From an uncultured Eubacteriales bacterium (lineage in GTDB: Bacteria; Bacillota_A; Clostridia; Oscillospirales; CAG-272), in contig USTB01000076.1 of NCBI GenBank assembly GCA_900557635.1, forward strand, positions 1-5,253: a stretch of 5,253 nucleotides of DNA, read 5' to 3'. How positions within the stretch are numbered: position 1 is the stretch's first letter; each line of letters starts with the position of its first letter. The notes beneath the pieces are model-generated. The model saw nothing but the letters and a program-made list of their open reading frames with translations, was not told where the DNA came from and did not search any database. The position numbers were made by a program, and so were the translations under genes. Below are positions 1-5,253 of this stretch, in pieces.

Positions 1-183
1 CAGGGGGGCGTTGATCACCACAATGTCGAATCGGCTCTCCGTGACCGTGCGGCGTGCGCTTGCAATGTCCTTGACCTCGGTGACCGGCTGATAGCATTCG
101 GGAAGCAGGGAAAGCAGGGAAGCGTTGAACTTTTCGGAAGAGGATACTAAGAGCACGCTGTAGTATCGTTCTGTCAGGCTCAT
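1..183 (-). CDS. Response regulator with degenerate receiver, probable ANTAR antiterminator (N-terminal 61 residues, cut by window edge)
   Basis: The minus-strand frame from ATG at 183 stays open to the window edge and reads MSLTERYYSVLLVSSSEKFN at its start, ending INAPL. A first strand (YYSVLLVSSS), a helix (EKFNASLLSLLP) and a later strand (FDIVVINAPL) follow a CheY-like receiver. The acidic pair normally after the first strand is replaced by serines, and the usual phospho-acceptor aspartate position is occupied by the N of VIN, so this looks like a pseudo-receiver. The sequence resembles the family in clostridia that ends in an RNA-binding ANTAR domain; that domain would lie outside the window, so the ANTAR assignment is from family resemblance and context. 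An AGAGAGGA ribosome binding site lies about 6 bases before the ATG. It starts 43 bases after the GS-like gene stop, without a visible terminator between, so it is probably the last or a late gene of the operon. It may act on the leader terminators at 4881-4939 and 5067-5109. Confidence 0.8.
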   Translation of the reverse strand, partial: MSLTERYYSVLLVSSSEKFNASLLSLLPECYQPVTEVKDIASARRTVTESRFDIVVINAPL

Positions 184-226: not shown

Positions 227-1435
227 TCAGTCGGTGTAGCTTTCGATCACGGCGGCGGGCAGATTCTGTGTGATCAGCTCGCTGTGCCGTGCGGCTTCCT
301 TGGCGCGCGCCAGATCCTCGGGAAGCCTTTGCAGGCGGGTGCGAAGCTCTGCGGTGTCTGCATTTACGTTTTCGTCCTGAGACGGCGGCAGCTCCATACG
401 CCGACGGACGCCGTCCGTTCCCGCGTGGATCAGAAGTGCAAAGGCAAGATACGGATTGCACAGCGGATCGGGGGAGCGCAGCTCGGCGCGTCGATACTCG
501 CCGGTGGCGGCGGGGACGCGGATGAGCTGGGAGCGATTACTGTTCGACCATGAAATATAGCGGGGCGCCTTTTTGGTACCGAAGCGCGCATAGGAATCCT
601 CGGTGGTATTGAGAAATGCCGTCATGCCGGAAATATGGTGCAGGATGCCTGCAATGACGTGGGGCATGACGTTGACGCCCGCAGTGCTTTTTGCGGAAAA
701 ATTGATATGCATGCCGTTTCCCGCCTCTGCCGGCAGGGGCTTGGGGGAAAAGTCGGCGTACAGTCCGTTTCGTGCGGCGATGGTATTGACCACGGAACGG
801 AAGGTGACGGCGTTATCCGCCGCCGTGAGCGGGTCGGAATAACGGAAGTCGATCTCGTTTTGCCCGGGTCCCTCCTCATGGTGGGAGCGCTCGGGGCGGA
901 TGCCCATTTGCTCCAGGGTCAGACAGATCTCCCGCCGCACGTTCTCGCCCTTATCCTCGGGCGCAATATCCATATAGCCCGCGCGGTCGTAGGGGGTCTT
1001 GGTGGGGGCACCGTCCGCGTCACGGCAGAAGAGATAGAATTCCATCTCGGTGCCGAATGCAAAGGTAAGTCCCTCCTTTGCCGCCTCCTCCGCTGCGCGG
1101 CGGAGAATACTGCGGGTATCCGACGCGAAGGGTCTGCCGTCCGGATTGGTGACGGTGCAGTACATGCGCACCACCCGTCCGTGCTCGGGTCGCCACGGCA
1201 GAAGAGATATGGTGGACGGAACCGGATGCAGAAGCAGATCGGATTCCACCTCTCCGCCGAAGCCCGCCACGGCAGATGCGTCAATGGCGATCCCCTCGGA
1301 AAAAGCGCGCTCCAGCTCCTGCGGCATGACAGAGACATTCTTCTGCCTGCCGTAGACATCGCAAAACGCCAGACGGATGAACTTGACATCCTCCTCCGTG
1401 ATATACTGCATGACTTCGTCCTTTGAGTATTCCAT
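227..1435 (-). CDS. glnA: Short type I glutamine synthetase-like protein (402 aa)
   Basis: GSI-family protein that would ligate ammonium to glutamate with ATP. It has a beta-grasp N-terminal domain (about 1-100) and a catalytic domain (about 105-402). Conserved motifs: IDAS (D52, ammonium-site aspartate), NPDGRPF (97-103), GTEMEF (E130, E132), HHEEGPGQNEIDF (E187, E194), AGNGMH (H243), NRSQLIR (301-306) and RRAELRSPDP (E318), so the metal and ATP site is largely intact. Three things are odd. The flap motif, normally ending EAP, reads TKKAP (K289 where the catalytic Glu is expected; codon AAG at 571-569). The arginine that mediates feedback inhibition in GSI-alpha enzymes is G61. The protein is about 40 residues shorter than B. 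subtilis-type GlnA, with losses before PHVIAGIL (258-265) and at the C-terminus. There is no adenylylation loop. The start is supported by AAAGG/AGGAG just upstream, 14 bases after the gltB3 stop. It may be a weak GS, a related ligase, or a regulatory GS homologue. Confidence 0.9.
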   Translation of the reverse strand: MEYSKDEVMQYITEEDVKFIRLAFCDVYGRQKNVSVMPQELERAFSEGIAIDASAVAGFGGEVESDLLLHPVPSTISLLPWRPEHGRVVRMYCTVTNPDGRPFASDTRSILRRAAEEAAKEGLTFAFGTEMEFYLFCRDADGAPTKTPYDRAGYMDIAPEDKGENVRREICLTLEQMGIRPERSHHEEGPGQNEIDFRYSDPLTAADNAVTFRSVVNTIAARNGLYADFSPKPLPAEAGNGMHINFSAKSTAGVNVMPHVIAGILHHISGMTAFLNTTEDSYARFGTKKAPRYISWSNSNRSQLIRVPAATGEYRRAELRSPDPLCNPYLAFALLIHAGTDGVRRRMELPPSQDENVNADTAELRTRLQRLPEDLARAKEAARHSELITQNLPAAVIESYTD

Positions 1436-1449
1436 AGCTCCTGCCTTTC

Positions 1450-2169
1450 TCAGTTTGCAACATACATCTGCCGATACGGATTCTTGCTGTCGGGTGTGAC
1501 AACGGTGTAGGTATCGCGCAGGATCCGGTCGGCATCCTGCCCGAACAGCTCACAGTACCGAATGAGCAGAGGACGGATTTCCTCCATGTCCTCGGCATGT
1601 GCCTCCCGTGAGGTGGTCTGCCCCGGGAAGCGGATGCGGGACACGTCCCCGCGCAAAATCAGCTTGCCGCCGTGCATACCGGTGCAGGGGAAGTTGCCCA
1701 CGATGGGCTTTCCGTCCCTGTGCAGTCCCAGAACGAGGATCAGACCGCCTGCCTGATACTCGCCGAGAAAACTGCCCGCTCTGCCGCCGATGACGATGGT
1801 GGGCTTCTTTCCGCCGTATTCCTTGACGTGGATGCCCGCCCGATAGCCTGCGTTGCCCCGCACAAAGATGGTGCCGCCGCGCATTGCATAGCCTGCGGCG
1901 TCTCCGATGTTGCCGTGGATGACGATAGAACCGTCGTTCATGGTATCGCCCACAGCGTCCTGTGCGTTGCCGTATACCGTGATCTGTGCGCCGTCAAGAT
2001 AAGCGCCGAGCGCATTGCCGGGGATGCCGTGGATCTCGATGCGGCGGTCGCTCATGCCTGCGGCAATGAAGCGCTGACCGAGGCATCCGAGAATGCGGCA
2101 GTCGCCCTCGGCGTGCCGTATGGCATCATTGAGCGCCGCATAGCCCAGTTCCTTGGCTTCGATGTCCAT
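1450..2169 (-). CDS. gltB3: Glutamate synthase GXGXG-domain subunit (GltB3 type, 239 aa)
   Basis: This is the stand-alone form of the C-terminal domain of bacterial glutamate synthase alpha subunit. In the fused enzyme the domain is a right-handed beta-helix that scaffolds the amidotransferase and synthase domains. Residues about 47-149 carry repeated units of roughly 20 residues built on G-N-x(2)-[GD]-x(2)-G: HGIPGNALG, YGNAQDAVG, HGNIGDAAG, RGNAGYRAG and GGRAGSFLG, each followed by a short strand such as ITVYG or IVIHG. The C-terminal part (about 190-239) is mostly helical and ends in YRQMYVAN. There is no catalytic residue to point to, as expected. It lies between GltB2 (67-base gap) and the GS-like gene (14-base gap). 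The likely Shine-Dalgarno, AAAGG, lies in the loop of a perfect 6-bp inverted repeat just upstream (2175-2192), which could modulate translation. Length is normal for the split family, and the assignment is confident. Confidence 0.93.
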   Translation of the reverse strand: MDIEAKELGYAALNDAIRHAEGDCRILGCLGQRFIAAGMSDRRIEIHGIPGNALGAYLDGAQITVYGNAQDAVGDTMNDGSIVIHGNIGDAAGYAMRGGTIFVRGNAGYRAGIHVKEYGGKKPTIVIGGRAGSFLGEYQAGGLILVLGLHRDGKPIVGNFPCTGMHGGKLILRGDVSRIRFPGQTTSREAHAEDMEEIRPLLIRYCELFGQDADRILRDTYTVVTPDSKNPYRQMYVAN

Positions 2170-2236: not shown

Positions 2237-3742
2237 TTACTCGCCTGCATGGGCGATGCCGAGGATGGAAAGCTCCTTTTCGGTCATGCCGATGCCGCGA
2301 AGCATCAGGCGGTTTCCGCGCAGTGTCTCGATGGAGTTGATGCCCATGCCGCCCATCAGCTCCTTGATCTCGTGCTTCCATGCGGTCATGAGGCGGCAGA
2401 GACGCTCGGCGCCCTCGTTCGGATCGAGCCGACGGACCAATTCCGGACGCTGTGTAGCAATACCCCAGTTGCACTTGCCGCTCCGGCAGGTGCGGCACAG
2501 GTGACAGCCCATGGCAAGGAGCGCCGCCGTTGCGATGTAGCACGCATCGGCACCCAGTGCGATCGCTTTGACCACGTCCGAAGCCGAGCGGATACTGCCG
2601 CCCACCACTAAGGAAACGCGGTTGCGGATTCCCTCGTCGCGCAGACGCTGATCCACTGCCGCCAGTGCAAGCTCAATGGGAATGCCCACGTTGTCGCGGA
2701 TGCGTGTGGGTGCGGCACCGGTGCCGCCGCGCATGCCGTCGATGGCGATGATGTCCGCGCCGCTCCGTGCAATGCCGCTGGCAATGGCGGCAATGTTATG
2801 GACGGCGGCAACCTTAACGATGACCGGCTTTTTATAGTGGGTGGCTTCCTTGAGGGAGTAGACCAACTGGCGCAGATCCTCAATGGAATAGATATCGTGG
2901 TGAGGGGCGGGGGAGATGGCGTCCGAGCCTTCGGGGATCATACGGGTGCGGGAAACGTCGCCCACGATCTTGGCGCCGGGCAAATGTCCGCCGATGCCGG
3001 GTTTCGCGCCCTGACCCATCTTGATCTCGATGGCGGCGCCTGCGTTGAGGTAGTCGCGGTGGACGCCGAACCGTCCCGATGCCACCTGCACCACGGTATT
3101 GTCTCCGTAGCAGTAGAAGTCTTCATGCAGACCGCCCTCGCCCGTGTTGTAATAGATACCGAGCTTCTGTGCCGCGCGGGCAAGACTCTCATGTGCGTTG
3201 TAGCTGATGGAGCCGTAGCTCATGGCTGAGAACATCATGGGCATGGAAAGCTCAAGCTGGGGGGCTAACTCGGTGGCGAGGGTGCCGTCGGGCTTCCGAT
3301 GCACGGCGGACGGCTTACTGCCCAGAAAAACGCGGGTCTCCATCGGCTCGCGCAGGGGGTCGATGGGCGGGTTTGTCACCTGAGAAGCGTTGATCAGAAT
3401 CCGATCCCAGTAAACGGGGAGCGGATTGGGGTTACCCATGGAGGAAAGGAGAACGCCGCCGCTTTCGGCTTGCTTGTAGATCTCCTTGATGGCATCGCTC
3501 TTCCAGTTTGCGTTTTCGCGGAAGGTGCACGTGTTCTTCACGATCTTCAGGGCGTGGGTGGGGCACATGCAGACACAGCGCTGGCAGTCCACGCATTTGG
3601 ATTCGTCGCTCAGCATGACGCGGAGCTTTTCATCAAAGCGATGCACCTCGTTGGCACATTCCTTTTCGCAGATGCGGCAGTTGACACAGCGGTTCACGTT
3701 CCGCTCAATTTCAAAATCGGGAAATATGTAGTTGACAGGCAT
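2237..3742 (-). CDS. gltB2: Ferredoxin-domain glutamate synthase, FMN/Fe-S synthase subunit (GltB2 type, 501 aa)
   Basis: Synthase subunit of the archaeal-type split GOGAT: it adds ammonia, released from glutamine by GltB1, to 2-oxoglutarate and reduces the imine on FMN. The N-terminus (about 10-66) is a bacterial ferredoxin module with two CxxCxxCxxxC motifs, C19-C22-C25-C29 and C50-C53-C56-C60, the second followed by proline; these would feed electrons to the core. Residues about 95-470 form the FMN-binding TIM barrel: FSAMSYGSIS (171-180), GEGG (201-204), KMGQGAKPGIGGHLPG (241-256), IDGMRGGTGAAP (334-345) and the phosphate-binding VVGGSIRSASD (379-389). C413-x5-C419-x4-C424 is the 3Fe-4S motif, with an extra cysteine (C416) inside it. 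The start ATG overlaps the gltB1 stop as TGATG, which implies translational coupling; the preceding AAGAGGGTG is a moderate ribosome binding site. No NADPH-oxidoreductase subunit (GltD) is present in the window, so the donor may be ferredoxin or an unlinked partner. Confidence 0.95.
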   Translation of the reverse strand: MPVNYIFPDFEIERNVNRCVNCRICEKECANEVHRFDEKLRVMLSDESKCVDCQRCVCMCPTHALKIVKNTCTFRENANWKSDAIKEIYKQAESGGVLLSSMGNPNPLPVYWDRILINASQVTNPPIDPLREPMETRVFLGSKPSAVHRKPDGTLATELAPQLELSMPMMFSAMSYGSISYNAHESLARAAQKLGIYYNTGEGGLHEDFYCYGDNTVVQVASGRFGVHRDYLNAGAAIEIKMGQGAKPGIGGHLPGAKIVGDVSRTRMIPEGSDAISPAPHHDIYSIEDLRQLVYSLKEATHYKKPVIVKVAAVHNIAAIASGIARSGADIIAIDGMRGGTGAAPTRIRDNVGIPIELALAAVDQRLRDEGIRNRVSLVVGGSIRSASDVVKAIALGADACYIATAALLAMGCHLCRTCRSGKCNWGIATQRPELVRRLDPNEGAERLCRLMTAWKHEIKELMGGMGINSIETLRGNRLMLRGIGMTEKELSILGIAHAGE

Positions 3743-4833
3743 CAGAAGGCACCCTCTTTCACTTGCACGATCACAGGCTCGCCGCCGTCCGGCGCGTAGA
3801 TATTTCTTGCATCCGGCTCCATTTTGCGGATCGCGGCTTCTTCACTGGCAATCAGCACCAGATCGTCCTTTTCTCCCACGACCATGGAACGGAGCTTGAG
3901 GCGGTCGTTGAGCGCCATCAGCCCGCCGTTGTAGCCCAAAACGATGGAGAACGGTCCCGTGATCAGCAGACCGGAATACACCTTGCGCAGATAAGCAAGC
4001 TGTTCCCGCTCCTTCGGCGGCTTGGCTTCTATGGTGCTCCAGAACGGCGCGGCGATGACAGAAGCCATTTCCCGCAGGGTCAGTCCCTGACGGCGGAGCA
4101 GATAGTCCGCGATGTAGGTGATGACCTCGGTATCGGTTTGCAGGGTGCATTTGTAGCCGAACATCTCAATGTAGCGGCGGTTGGCATCGTAGGACGAGAT
4201 CTCTCCGTTGTGCACGATGGTGTAGTCGAGCAGTCCGAAGGGATGCGCGCCGCCCCACCAGCCGGGGGTGTTTGTGGGATATCTGCCGTGCGCCGTCCAC
4301 GAATAAGCTTCATATTCGTCCAATCGGTAGAAGCGTCCCACGTCCTCGGGGAAGCCCACCGCCTTAAAGGCTCCCATGTTTTTGCCGCTGGAAAACACAT
4401 AAGCGCCGTCCAAGTGCGTGTTGATGTACATGACCGTGCGCGCGATGTATTCCTTTTCGTCTAACTGCAAATGGGAGAGCACGGAGGCAAGGGGCGCAAC
4501 GAAATAGCGCCAGATCAGGGGCACGTCCGTGATCTCGGGAATCTTCCGCACAGGGATGGTCTCCGCCTTGACGATCTCGAACCGATCCTTTAACAGTCGC
4601 TCGCATTCCTCGCGGACGGAATTATTATTGTAGAAAATATGAAACGCATAGCAGTCGCGGTACTCCGGATAAATGCCGTAGCCCGCAAAGCCGCCGCCCA
4701 GTCCGTTTGAGCGGTCGTGCATGGGGATCATACTGCTGATGATCTTTTCCCCCGTCATCAATCTTCCGTCCCGTGAGATCATGGCGGAAATGGCGCATCC
4801 GGACGGGATACGAACCTGACCTTCCACTTTCAT
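3742..4833 (-). CDS. gltB1: Class II glutamine amidotransferase subunit of split glutamate synthase (GltB1 type, 363 aa)
   Basis: N-terminal nucleophile amidotransferase that hydrolyses glutamine to glutamate and passes ammonia to the synthase subunit. Motifs in order: RIPSGC (8-13) with the presumed nucleophile C13; MHDRSNGLGGGFAGYGIYP (38-56); HGRYPTNTPGWWGGAHPF (182-199), the family's glutamine-site arginine and glycine-rich segment; HNGEISSY (208-215) with the oxyanion-hole N209 and G210; and TDTE (233-236). C13 is not next to the initiator Met, so a 12-residue propeptide (MKVEGQVRIPSG) would have to be removed for the cysteine to act as the N-terminal nucleophile. The frame is open 31 codons further upstream, but that extension lies over the leader terminator and is low-complexity. 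The ATG at 4833 has an AGAAAGGAC ribosome binding site at good spacing and gives the family-like start. It is the first gene of the operon and its stop overlaps the gltB2 start (TGATG). Confidence 0.94.
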   Translation of the reverse strand: MKVEGQVRIPSGCAISAMISRDGRLMTGEKIISSMIPMHDRSNGLGGGFAGYGIYPEYRDCYAFHIFYNNNSVREECERLLKDRFEIVKAETIPVRKIPEITDVPLIWRYFVAPLASVLSHLQLDEKEYIARTVMYINTHLDGAYVFSSGKNMGAFKAVGFPEDVGRFYRLDEYEAYSWTAHGRYPTNTPGWWGGAHPFGLLDYTIVHNGEISSYDANRRYIEMFGYKCTLQTDTEVITYIADYLLRRQGLTLREMASVIAAPFWSTIEAKPPKEREQLAYLRKVYSGLLITGPFSIVLGYNGGLMALNDRLKLRSMVVGEKDDLVLIASEEAAIRKMEPDARNIYAPDGGEPVIVQVKEGAF

Positions 4834-4880: not shown

Positions 4881-4939
4881 GAAAAAAGAAAAGGCGACCA
4901 CTGCGCAGGAGAGTTTTTCTCCTCACAATGAACGCCTTT
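4881..4939 (-). terminator. Leader intrinsic terminator (attenuator) before gltB1
   Basis: On the minus strand AAAGGCG (4939-4933) pairs with CGCCTTT (4896-4890). Inside, a longer stem continues with several G-U pairs, one T-T mismatch and one bulged G, up to AGGAG/CTCCT closing an A-rich loop. The stem is followed directly by a T-rich run with single C interruptions (4892-4881). It lies between the promoter at 4983-4955 and the gltB1 start, beginning only about 8-10 bases into the transcript and ending about 48 bases before the ATG. A terminator placed there should abort transcription unless antitermination occurs. Structure was read by eye, not by energy calculation. Confidence 0.8.
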
Positions 4940-4941
4940 GC
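4932..4941 (-). promoter_or_regulatory. Shared leader box GCAAAGGCGT of the glt operon
   Basis: GCAAAGGCGT on the minus strand begins exactly 13 bases after the -10 hexamer. The divergent glnN leader has GCAATGGCGT at exactly the same distance from its own TATAAT. The GGCG part forms the base of the terminator hairpin, while GCAA lies single-stranded just before it, near the RNA 5' end. It could be a protein recognition element, an initially transcribed sequence signal or part of the attenuator family consensus. Confidence 0.55.
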
Positions 4942-4954
4942 TCATTACCGGACA

Positions 4955-4983
4955 ATTATAGCACTGCGTGCCTCATTTGTCAA
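4955..4983 (-). promoter_or_regulatory. Sigma-A promoter of the gltB1-gltB2-gltB3-GS-regulator operon
   Basis: Read on the minus strand, TTGACA (4983-4978) and TATAAT (4960-4955) are both perfect consensus hexamers with the optimal 17-base spacer. Transcription should start near 4949-4946, about 115 bases before the gltB1 ATG. With so strong a promoter, regulation most plausibly occurs at the terminator immediately downstream rather than by activation. Confidence 0.9.
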
Positions 4984-4985
4984 TG

Positions 4986-5017
4986 CTTTTCGAAAAATTA
5001 ATTTTTTTCAAAAAAGG
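4986..5017. repeat. A/T-rich imperfect inverted repeat between the divergent promoters
   Basis: The core AAAAATTAATTTTT (4993-5006) is a perfect palindrome centred between the two -35 hexamers (4983-4978 minus and 5020-5025 plus). Imperfect symmetry extends outward as CTTTT-CGAAAAATT against AATTTTTTTC-AAAAAAG. Its A and T tracts lie directly upstream of both promoters, so it can serve as an UP element for each. It does not match the TGTNA-N7-TNACA site of GlnR/TnrA. A binding protein is possible but not shown. Confidence 0.45.
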
Positions 5018-5019
5018 AC

Positions 5020-5048
5020 TTGACAAACGGCGGCAAAGTGATTATAAT
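5020..5048 (+). promoter_or_regulatory. Sigma-A promoter of glnN
   Basis: TTGACA (5020-5025) and TATAAT (5043-5048) are perfect consensus hexamers with a 17-base spacer, preceded by A/T tracts. Transcription should start near 5054-5056, giving a leader of about 130 bases before the glnN ATG. It is back-to-back with the operon promoter, the two -35 boxes being 36 bases apart. Confidence 0.9.
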
Positions 5049-5061
5049 GGCACACATGAAG

Positions 5062-5071
5062 GCAATGGCGT
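5062..5071 (+). promoter_or_regulatory. Shared leader box GCAATGGCGT of glnN
   Basis: Counterpart of the box at 4941-4932: GCAANGGCGT begins 13 bases after TATAAT in both leaders. Its GGCGT forms the base of the 5' arm of the terminator hairpin that follows. The identical placement in two otherwise different leaders is the main evidence that this is a conserved element. Confidence 0.55.
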
Positions 5072-5109
5072 CTTAGAGCAATATAGCTCTGAGGCGCCCT
5101 TTTTCTTTT
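5067..5109 (+). terminator. Leader intrinsic terminator (attenuator) before glnN
   Basis: The 13-base arms GGCGTCTTAGAGC (5067-5079) and GCTCTGAGGCGCC (5086-5098) pair fully, with two G-U wobbles, around the hexaloop AATATA (5080-5085). A T-rich tract with one C follows (5100-5109). The hairpin starts about 12 bases after the predicted transcription start and ends about 75 bases before the glnN ATG, so by default it should release a short RNA of about 50 bases. A six-base loop starting with A is reminiscent of ANTAR targets, but the G expected at loop position 4 is A and no upstream partner hairpin fits, so this is not a canonical ANTAR dual hexaloop. Confidence 0.87.
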
Positions 5110-5113
5110 CCCA

Positions 5114-5166
5114 CGACCCGCAAAACGGGACGCGTAACAATTTCCTGTTACCGATTCGCGTAACAG
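5114..5166 (+). promoter_or_regulatory. Distal glnN leader with alternative hairpins before the ribosome binding site
   Basis: CCCG-CAAAA-CGGG (5117-5129) forms a small hairpin, extendable by two pairs across an A-A mismatch to 5114-5132. Next, GTAACA (5134-5139) can pair with TGTTAC (5146-5151) around a six-base loop. The same middle segment, CTGTTAC (5145-5151), can instead pair with GTAACAG (5160-5166). The two outer segments are direct repeats CGCGTAACA (5131-5139 and 5157-5165). The hairpins are mutually exclusive, and the second ends 3 bases before the AAGGAGGA ribosome binding site (5170-5177). This could affect translation or RNA stability; function is inferred. Confidence 0.45.
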
Positions 5167-5184
5167 ATCAAGGAGGATTTGACA

Positions 5185-5253
5185 ATGAGCACCGTATCGG
5201 ATTATTTCGGAAGCCTTGTATTTGATGATCGGGTGATGAAGACAAATTTGCCC
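5185..5253 (+). CDS. glnN: Type III glutamine synthetase, N-terminal 23 residues (cut by window edge)
   Basis: The frame from ATG at 5185 reads MSTVSDYFGSLVFDD and continues as RVMKTNLP to the edge. This matches from memory the N-terminus typical of clostridial and Bacteroides GSIII enzymes (x-x-FGSLVFND-x-VM-x-x-LPK). GSIII enzymes are large (about 700 residues) ATP-dependent glutamine synthetases and the main ammonium-assimilating enzyme in several gut anaerobes. The start has a strong AAGGAGGA ribosome binding site (5170-5177) 7 bases upstream. It is divergent from the GOGAT operon and has its own promoter and leader terminator. Only 23 residues are visible, so catalytic motifs cannot be checked. 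Confidence 0.82.
   Translation, partial: MSTVSDYFGSLVFDDRVMKTNLP

Follow-up and report, generated by a model that had tools for sequence, protein, structure and literature searches.

The intergenic region between a split glutamate synthase (GOGAT) operon and a type III glutamine synthetase (GSIII) gene in an uncultured Eubacteriales bacterium poses a question: what allows transcription to proceed from two divergent promoters when each is followed directly by a terminator? The stretch of DNA analyzed here in full (hereafter the window) is 5,253 nucleotides long (GenBank assembly GCA_900557635.1, contig USTB01000076.1). On the minus strand, an operon begins with the class II glutamine amidotransferase subunit of split GOGAT (3742..4833; Pfam GATase_2), followed by a glutamate synthase FMN domain with a ferredoxin-like N-terminus (2237..3742; Glu_synthase), the GXGXG subunit of split GOGAT (1450..2169; GXGXG) and a type I glutamine synthetase (GSI; 227..1435; Gln-synt_C and Gln-synt_N). 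The last gene is represented by the first 61 residues of a response regulator (1..183, minus strand), an assignment made from its sequence and its relatives, in which the protein bears an ANTAR domain; a Pfam search with the 61-residue fragment gave no match. On the plus strand lies the start of GSIII (glnN, 5185..5253), cut by the window end and recognized by 21 of 23 residues matching an L001 protein with a GSIII_N domain (L001 and L002 being the two GSIII-like proteins checked against Pfam).

The sequence-only reading of this region had described two perfect divergent promoters, a box locked at 13 bases after TATAAT and a terminator in each leader. These descriptions hold in the window. The promoter of the GOGAT operon (4955..4983, minus strand; TTGACA at 4983-4978, TATAAT at 4960-4955) and that of GSIII (5020..5048, plus strand; TTGACA at 5020-5025, TATAAT at 5043-5048) both agree with the consensus at 12 of 12 bases and have 17-base spacers, and the two such promoters compare with a mean of 0.6 in shuffles. 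The exact box GCAANGGCGT occurs twice, at 5062-5071 on the plus strand and 4932-4941 on the minus strand, each time 13 bases after TATAAT; with one mismatch allowed, the window holds seven sites (shuffle mean 1.86). The GSIII terminator (5067..5110, plus strand) consists of a hairpin at 5067-5098 and a T-rich tract, and the GOGAT terminator (4881..4939, minus strand) of a hairpin at about 4939-4890, again with a T-rich tract. A simple terminator scan of the window returned the GSIII terminator only; folding supports both, with energies of -26.2 and -31.0 kcal/mol (z -5.55 and -5.85), as does covariation in relatives.

Two features lie beyond that earlier account: the box forms a hexaloop hairpin that competes with the terminator, and an ANTAR gene stands at the end of the operon in relatives. 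In both window leaders, the box supplies the loop and neck of another hairpin, alternative to the terminator and predicted from folding and from covariation in relatives. The GSIII antiterminator hairpin, AAGGC[AATGGC]GTCTT (5059..5074, plus strand), contains the box at 5062-5071; its GOGAT counterpart, GTAATGAGC[AAAGGC]GTTCATTGT (4925..4948, minus strand), contains the box at 4932-4941 and sits at the expected RNA 5' end. Each loop is six bases long, carries A at position 1 and G at position 4 (A1/G4), and is closed by a C-G pair. The two structures are mutually exclusive because one stretch serves both as 3' half of the hexaloop hairpin and as 5' arm of the terminator. Stepwise folds of the growing RNA, with the start taken 7 bases after the -10 hexamer, gave the hexaloop hairpin as the best fold at 20-36 nt for GSIII and 20-44 nt for GOGAT, with the terminator winning from about 40 and 52 nt, respectively. 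The finished terminators are far more stable than the structures that keep the hexaloop (-26.2 versus -11.4 and -31.0 versus -15.4 kcal/mol); thus, the hexaloop would need a holder to win.

The rules published for ANTAR targets call for A1 and G4 in a hexaloop, for an important closing pair and for a site that overlaps a terminator (PMC3369931). The 3' side of an A1/G4 hexaloop also competes with an intrinsic terminator in the targets of EutV (eut), NasR (nasF) and AmiR (amiE); like the leaders here, the dual-hexaloop targets are linked to nitrogen genes and an ANTAR protein, and glutamate and glutamine synthases are among them (PMC3369931). The eutP hairpin also has a short stem with conserved closing pairs A-U and C-G (PMC3369931). 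We therefore read the two leaders as a natural single-hexaloop variant of ANTAR antitermination, that is, a transcription switch run by a protein, and on the sequence evidence put the probability of this reading at roughly three in four. The first structure to emerge from RNA polymerase, right at the 5' end of the RNA, would be the small hexaloop hairpin. Left unheld, the hexaloop would lose its 3' half to the downstream arm, the terminator would form and transcription would stop after about 55-70 nt. An active ANTAR regulator, encoded by the last gene of the GOGAT operon, would bind the A1/G4 hexaloop and shield its 3' half from the terminator, so that GSIII and the GOGAT-GSI-ANTAR operon would be transcribed. 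Since the regulator is encoded in that operon, we propose that it also controls its own synthesis. Binding of the ANTAR protein to the hairpin, with antitermination as its outcome, is thus a predicted step, and the signal may be nitrogen or glutamine status.

Several other elements of the window were considered. The five matches returned by an Rfam search (E up to 5) fell far short of gathering scores, and no bacterial leader family was among them; covariance models of the glnA RNA, the T-box and other Rfam cis-regulatory families had no match in the window. Leader-peptide attenuation was rejected: an ORF starts from an ATG within the GOGAT hairpin, but no ribosome-binding site was seen ahead of it, and it has no counterpart in the GSIII leader. 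A further A1/G4 hexaloop hairpin of 6 bp, CAGATC[AAGGAG]GATTTG, surrounds the GSIII ribosome-binding site (5165-5182). As a functional hexaloop it was discarded; a hairpin of at least 4 bp occurs there in just 3 of 61 GSIII leaders (best 80 loci plus the window), so the one in the window is probably due to chance. Between the terminator and this ribosome-binding site (5134-5165) are the half-sites GTAACA, TGTTAC and GTAACA, from which two alternative hairpins, or a site for a protein, could arise; the complete set was found in none of the 60 other GSIII leaders at the best 80 loci, L001 included.

Relatives were gathered by an amidotransferase scan, from which the best 80 loci were retained, most of them bearing titles of clostridial metagenome assemblies; a facing GSIII-like gene was usable at 60 of these, giving leader sets of 81 (GOGAT) and 61 (GSIII) with the window included. 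A hexaloop of the form C[AANGRY]G on a stem of at least 4 bp was present in 77 of the 81 GOGAT leaders and 57 of the 61 GSIII leaders, and the exact box in 58 and 44, respectively (best 80 loci plus the window). Two of the four GOGAT leaders lacking this form have a loop beginning with G: GAAC[GATGAT]GTTC and GAAC[GACGGT]GTTC, found ahead of the amidotransferase gene in L038 and L073, whose genomes are titled Pseudoflavonifractor and Oscillibacter; each of these loci carries an A1/G4 element after its regulator gene. Across the 81 sequences (878,277 bases; best 80 loci plus the window), 149 A1/G4 hexaloops overlap a terminator, versus 3 in one dinucleotide shuffle. They account for 149 of the 195 terminator-overlapping, C-G-closed hexaloop hairpins in these sequences; 14 other loop classes total 46, with a maximum of 8.

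To guard against circular reasoning, only loop and terminator were used to pick 216 sites, and the 5' arm was left out of account. The 5' arm nevertheless pairs over at least 4 bp at 166 of them (fewer at the other 50), with pairing frequencies at positions 3-7 of 0.88, 0.86, 0.85, 0.71 and 0.62, compared with 0.69, 0.61, 0.46, 0.58 and 0.43 for shuffled arms. The C-G closing pair, likewise no part of the choice, is present at 181 of the 216 sites, and the second pair is G-U at 172 and A-U at 29. Covariation was measured on a 64-element alignment, hand-picked from 139 plus the GOGAT leader of the window; most of its members had been selected for having stems of 4 bp or more. Pairing in this alignment reaches 92.9% for the antiterminator helix, which has 113 two-sided changes, and 95.0% for the terminator helix, which has 129. 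The antiterminator helix scores 0.616 for covariation and the terminator helix 0.629; sliding the helices gives no more than 0.203 and 0.206, respectively. One of five covariation measures for the antiterminator, pairs changed on both sides, was not above shuffles (5 versus 4.8). Since a large share of the variation lies between GOGAT-type and GSIII-type arms, independent events are fewer than cells. By the measure of these alignments, both mutually exclusive helices covary. With this recurrence, the proposal that very short leader attenuators form a family co-regulating GSIII and split GOGAT is supported; the family is real, and it is wider than had been supposed.

Among 166 elements in relatives, 134 have a promoter scoring at least 9/12 and 32 lack a recognizable promoter. 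The box begins 11-15 bases after the -10 hexamer in 115 of the 134 promoter-bearing elements and at 6 to 62 bases in the other 19. The claim of a position-locked box thus stands for the window, but in relatives the preference is strong without being strict. At 11-15 bases, the hairpin lies a few bases from the expected RNA 5' end.

In the number of hexaloops, the leaders depart from published ANTAR targets. In PMC3369931, the ANTAR motif comprises two hexaloops (separated by a linker of 5-12 nt in eut leaders), and induction was lost when the first was deleted; the leaders here have just the terminator-overlapping hexaloop, near the expected RNA 5' end. Antitermination required both hexaloops in PMC3369931 and in PMC8934654, a crystal study in which the ANTAR dimer contacts a single hexaloop as the minimal binding motif and the first hexaloop is kept as a recruitment hairpin for antitermination. 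With one hexaloop where published targets have two, the window leaders resemble ANTAR antiterminators while failing one defining feature of the dual-hexaloop motif. According to PMC8934654, single-hexaloop sites may exist and deserve further work, and they are named for settings in which transcription imposes no time limit; in contrast, the single hexaloops described here seem to work at terminators, during transcription itself.

A second A1/G4 hexaloop upstream was found in 1 of the 134 promoter-bearing elements and in neither leader of the window, and dual hexaloops in 2 of 44 typed leaders in other genomes. Both of the latter (L199, ahead of an ammonium transporter gene, and L189) look classical, and the ANTAR protein sampled from each genome keeps the receiver Asp and is aromatic where EutV has Tyr164. 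The apical hairpin of the terminator, which in the GSIII leader reads AGAGC[AATATA]GCTCT, was considered as the missing second hexaloop and rejected: 26 six-base apical loops occurred among 163 single-hairpin folds, and none had A1 and G4. A different arrangement was seen in 19 leaders of the gene facing GOGAT (L020, L021, L033, L037, L064 and others, on the minus strand), where two complete hexaloop-terminator modules stand in series, 61-122 nt apart. The gene behind them is usually GSIII, and GDH in L036. Unlike the published dual hexaloop, each serial module has its own terminator (by the definition of the search); the window has one module per leader.

A response-regulator gene follows GSI at 50 of the best 80 loci, many others ending too early; in the relatives tested, 8 of 8, the protein encoded last in the operon has an ANTAR domain. 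EutV-type regulators have a phospho-acceptor Asp, whereas the corresponding residue is Asn in 27 of 27 aligned GOGAT-linked relatives; the fragment in the window also has Asn there (residue 58). At the site of Tyr164, the EutV residue that stacks on G4 (PMC8934654), the same 27 of 27 have His, with residues matched by eye from alignments. In a broader sample of 56 element-bearing genomes, the phospho position of the best regulator is occupied by Asn in 39, by Asp in 9 and by another residue in 8; loss of the phospho-site is thus common but not universal. Five regulators show G there, in low-scoring alignments that may be misaligned. None of 37 leaders is dual where the Tyr164 position is His, against 2 of 7 with other residues (p 0.022). 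A tie between single-hexaloop leaders and regulator type was rejected, as the cases are too few and are linked by ancestry. The single form also occurs in six leaders whose regulator is of the Asp type and is therefore not bound to an Asn receiver.

A covariance model built from the elements (R1), which scores the two window leaders at 48.1 and 46.2 bits, was used to search genomes. It matched in 20 of the 20 genomes of the loci at E 0.1, several of which had supplied the model. Among 100 genomes of one family, 38 had the element (E 0.01), 69 an ANTAR gene and 35 both; ANTAR was thus present in 35 of 38 element-bearing versus 34 of 62 element-free genomes (Fisher p 5.7e-5, ancestry ignored). 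Among 196 genomes of the class, 29 had the element (E 0.003), 100 an ANTAR gene and 27 both, that is, 27 of 29 versus 73 of 167 (p 3.1e-7, ancestry ignored). Genomes that had supplied the model occurred in these draws (G001, G002 and G020, and, to judge by their contigs, G055 with L056 and G247 with L010); removing G001, G002, G020 and G247 leaves 23 of 25 at the class level. No ANTAR gene was seen in 5 of 67 element-bearing genome draws (G055, G072, G099, G159 and G162), and ANTAR occurred without the element at the thresholds used in 107 draws; with at most 150, 51 or 26 first-look candidates scored per genome, absences are weak. The co-occurrence of element and ANTAR gene is confounded by shared ancestry.

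The search also located the box before nitrogen genes other than the two in the window: besides GSIII and GOGAT, matches precede GDH, amt, gltB and several glutamine-using genes. Targets were classified for 57 of 81 match rows, the 24 omitted being 16 opposite-strand mirrors and 8 at GOGAT, GDH or GSIII by position. At more than 100 bits, 38 of the 57 were GSIII (17), GOGAT amidotransferase (9), CTP synthase (5), GDH (3), Amt or Amt-PII (3) and GSI (1); eight of the other 19 were gltB (3), carA (2), purC (2) and an aminotransferase (1), by Pfam or reading. The remaining 11 stand before unrelated or unidentified genes (PucR on both strands, isochorismatase, glycosyl hydrolase, ATP-grasp, sugar transferase, PPDK and others), and no A1/G4 hexaloop was seen in the matches L113, L147, L148 and L178. 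At the class level, 15 of 25 loci were GSIII (5), Amt (4), GOGAT amidotransferase (2), purC (2), gltB (1) and GSI (1), with asparagine synthase, adenylosuccinate lyase, citrate synthase and a radical SAM protein as extra targets by Pfam. Elements stand before pyrG (L122, L129, L145 and L151), carA (L182), purC (L115, L140, L188 and L193) and asnB (L187). These targets in nucleotide and asparagine synthesis, most of them glutamine-consuming, suggest a glutamine-centered regulon; pyrG, carA, purC and asnB do not fit a switch for nitrogen limitation alone.

Who holds the hexaloop is the point on which the strongest rival turns. The hairpin may be a real antiterminator that is stabilized by a metabolite, another RNA-binding protein or a small RNA, a reading that draws on the missing classical first hexaloop and on the few element-bearing genomes without an ANTAR gene. 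We consider it unlikely given the strong preference for A1/G4 six-base loops with C-G closing, the lack of an Rfam match and the ANTAR gene within the same operon; the hairpin is also probably too small for a metabolite aptamer. Somewhat less probable still are ordinary promoter-proximal terminators or 5' stabilizing hairpins with a fixed, low and unregulated readthrough. Strong terminators right behind strong promoters favor this reading, but it explains neither the kept pairing of the upstream arm with the 5' arm of the terminator nor the loop bias. The tight -10 spacing (115 of 134 elements at 11-15 bases) could also reflect a DNA operator just past the start site, read by a DNA-binding protein, but this is very improbable, since 19 of the 134 elements depart from the strict lock an operator would show, 16 of the 19 downstream serial modules lack a recognizable promoter, and the arms exchange base pairs as RNA helices do.

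In NitR/glnA-type ANTAR regulation of solventogenic Clostridium, the regulator gene adjoins the glutamine synthetase gene, a likeness to the present locus. The glnA RNA, a cyanobacterial glutamine riboswitch candidate, can be tandem and precedes genes for glutamine synthetase, GOGAT, PII and ammonium transporters (PMC2864571); no Rfam family of that kind has a match in the window. In the literature searched, no report described clostridial ANTAR terminator leaders with a single hexaloop upstream of GSIII or GOGAT; the hit tables of PMC3369931 may include some related ones.

Single-hexaloop ANTAR antitermination may also be placed in a broader and distinctly more tentative scheme, one that we regard as somewhat short of an even chance. 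In a clostridial clade, antitermination would be self-sufficient with one hexaloop, the position at the RNA 5' end replacing the recruitment hairpin. The GOGAT-linked regulator would be a pseudo-receiver, unable to accept phosphate at the usual residue, and would thus sense nitrogen or glutamine status by direct binding of a metabolite or protein; the Asp kept by 9 of 56 regulators of element-bearing genomes counts against this form of sensing. The switch would govern ammonia assimilation together with pyrG, carA, purC and asnB, with two serial switches in many leaders facing GOGAT.

PMC8934654 leaves open why two hexaloops are needed when the dimer contacts one. A large natural set of leaders without the recruitment hairpin makes this question directly testable, and the covariance model locates the targets of the switch. 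For regulators without the Asp, sensing must differ from classical two-component signaling. The leaders also offer a candidate mechanism of nitrogen control for many uncultured clostridia, whose titles name rumen, fecal and other samples.
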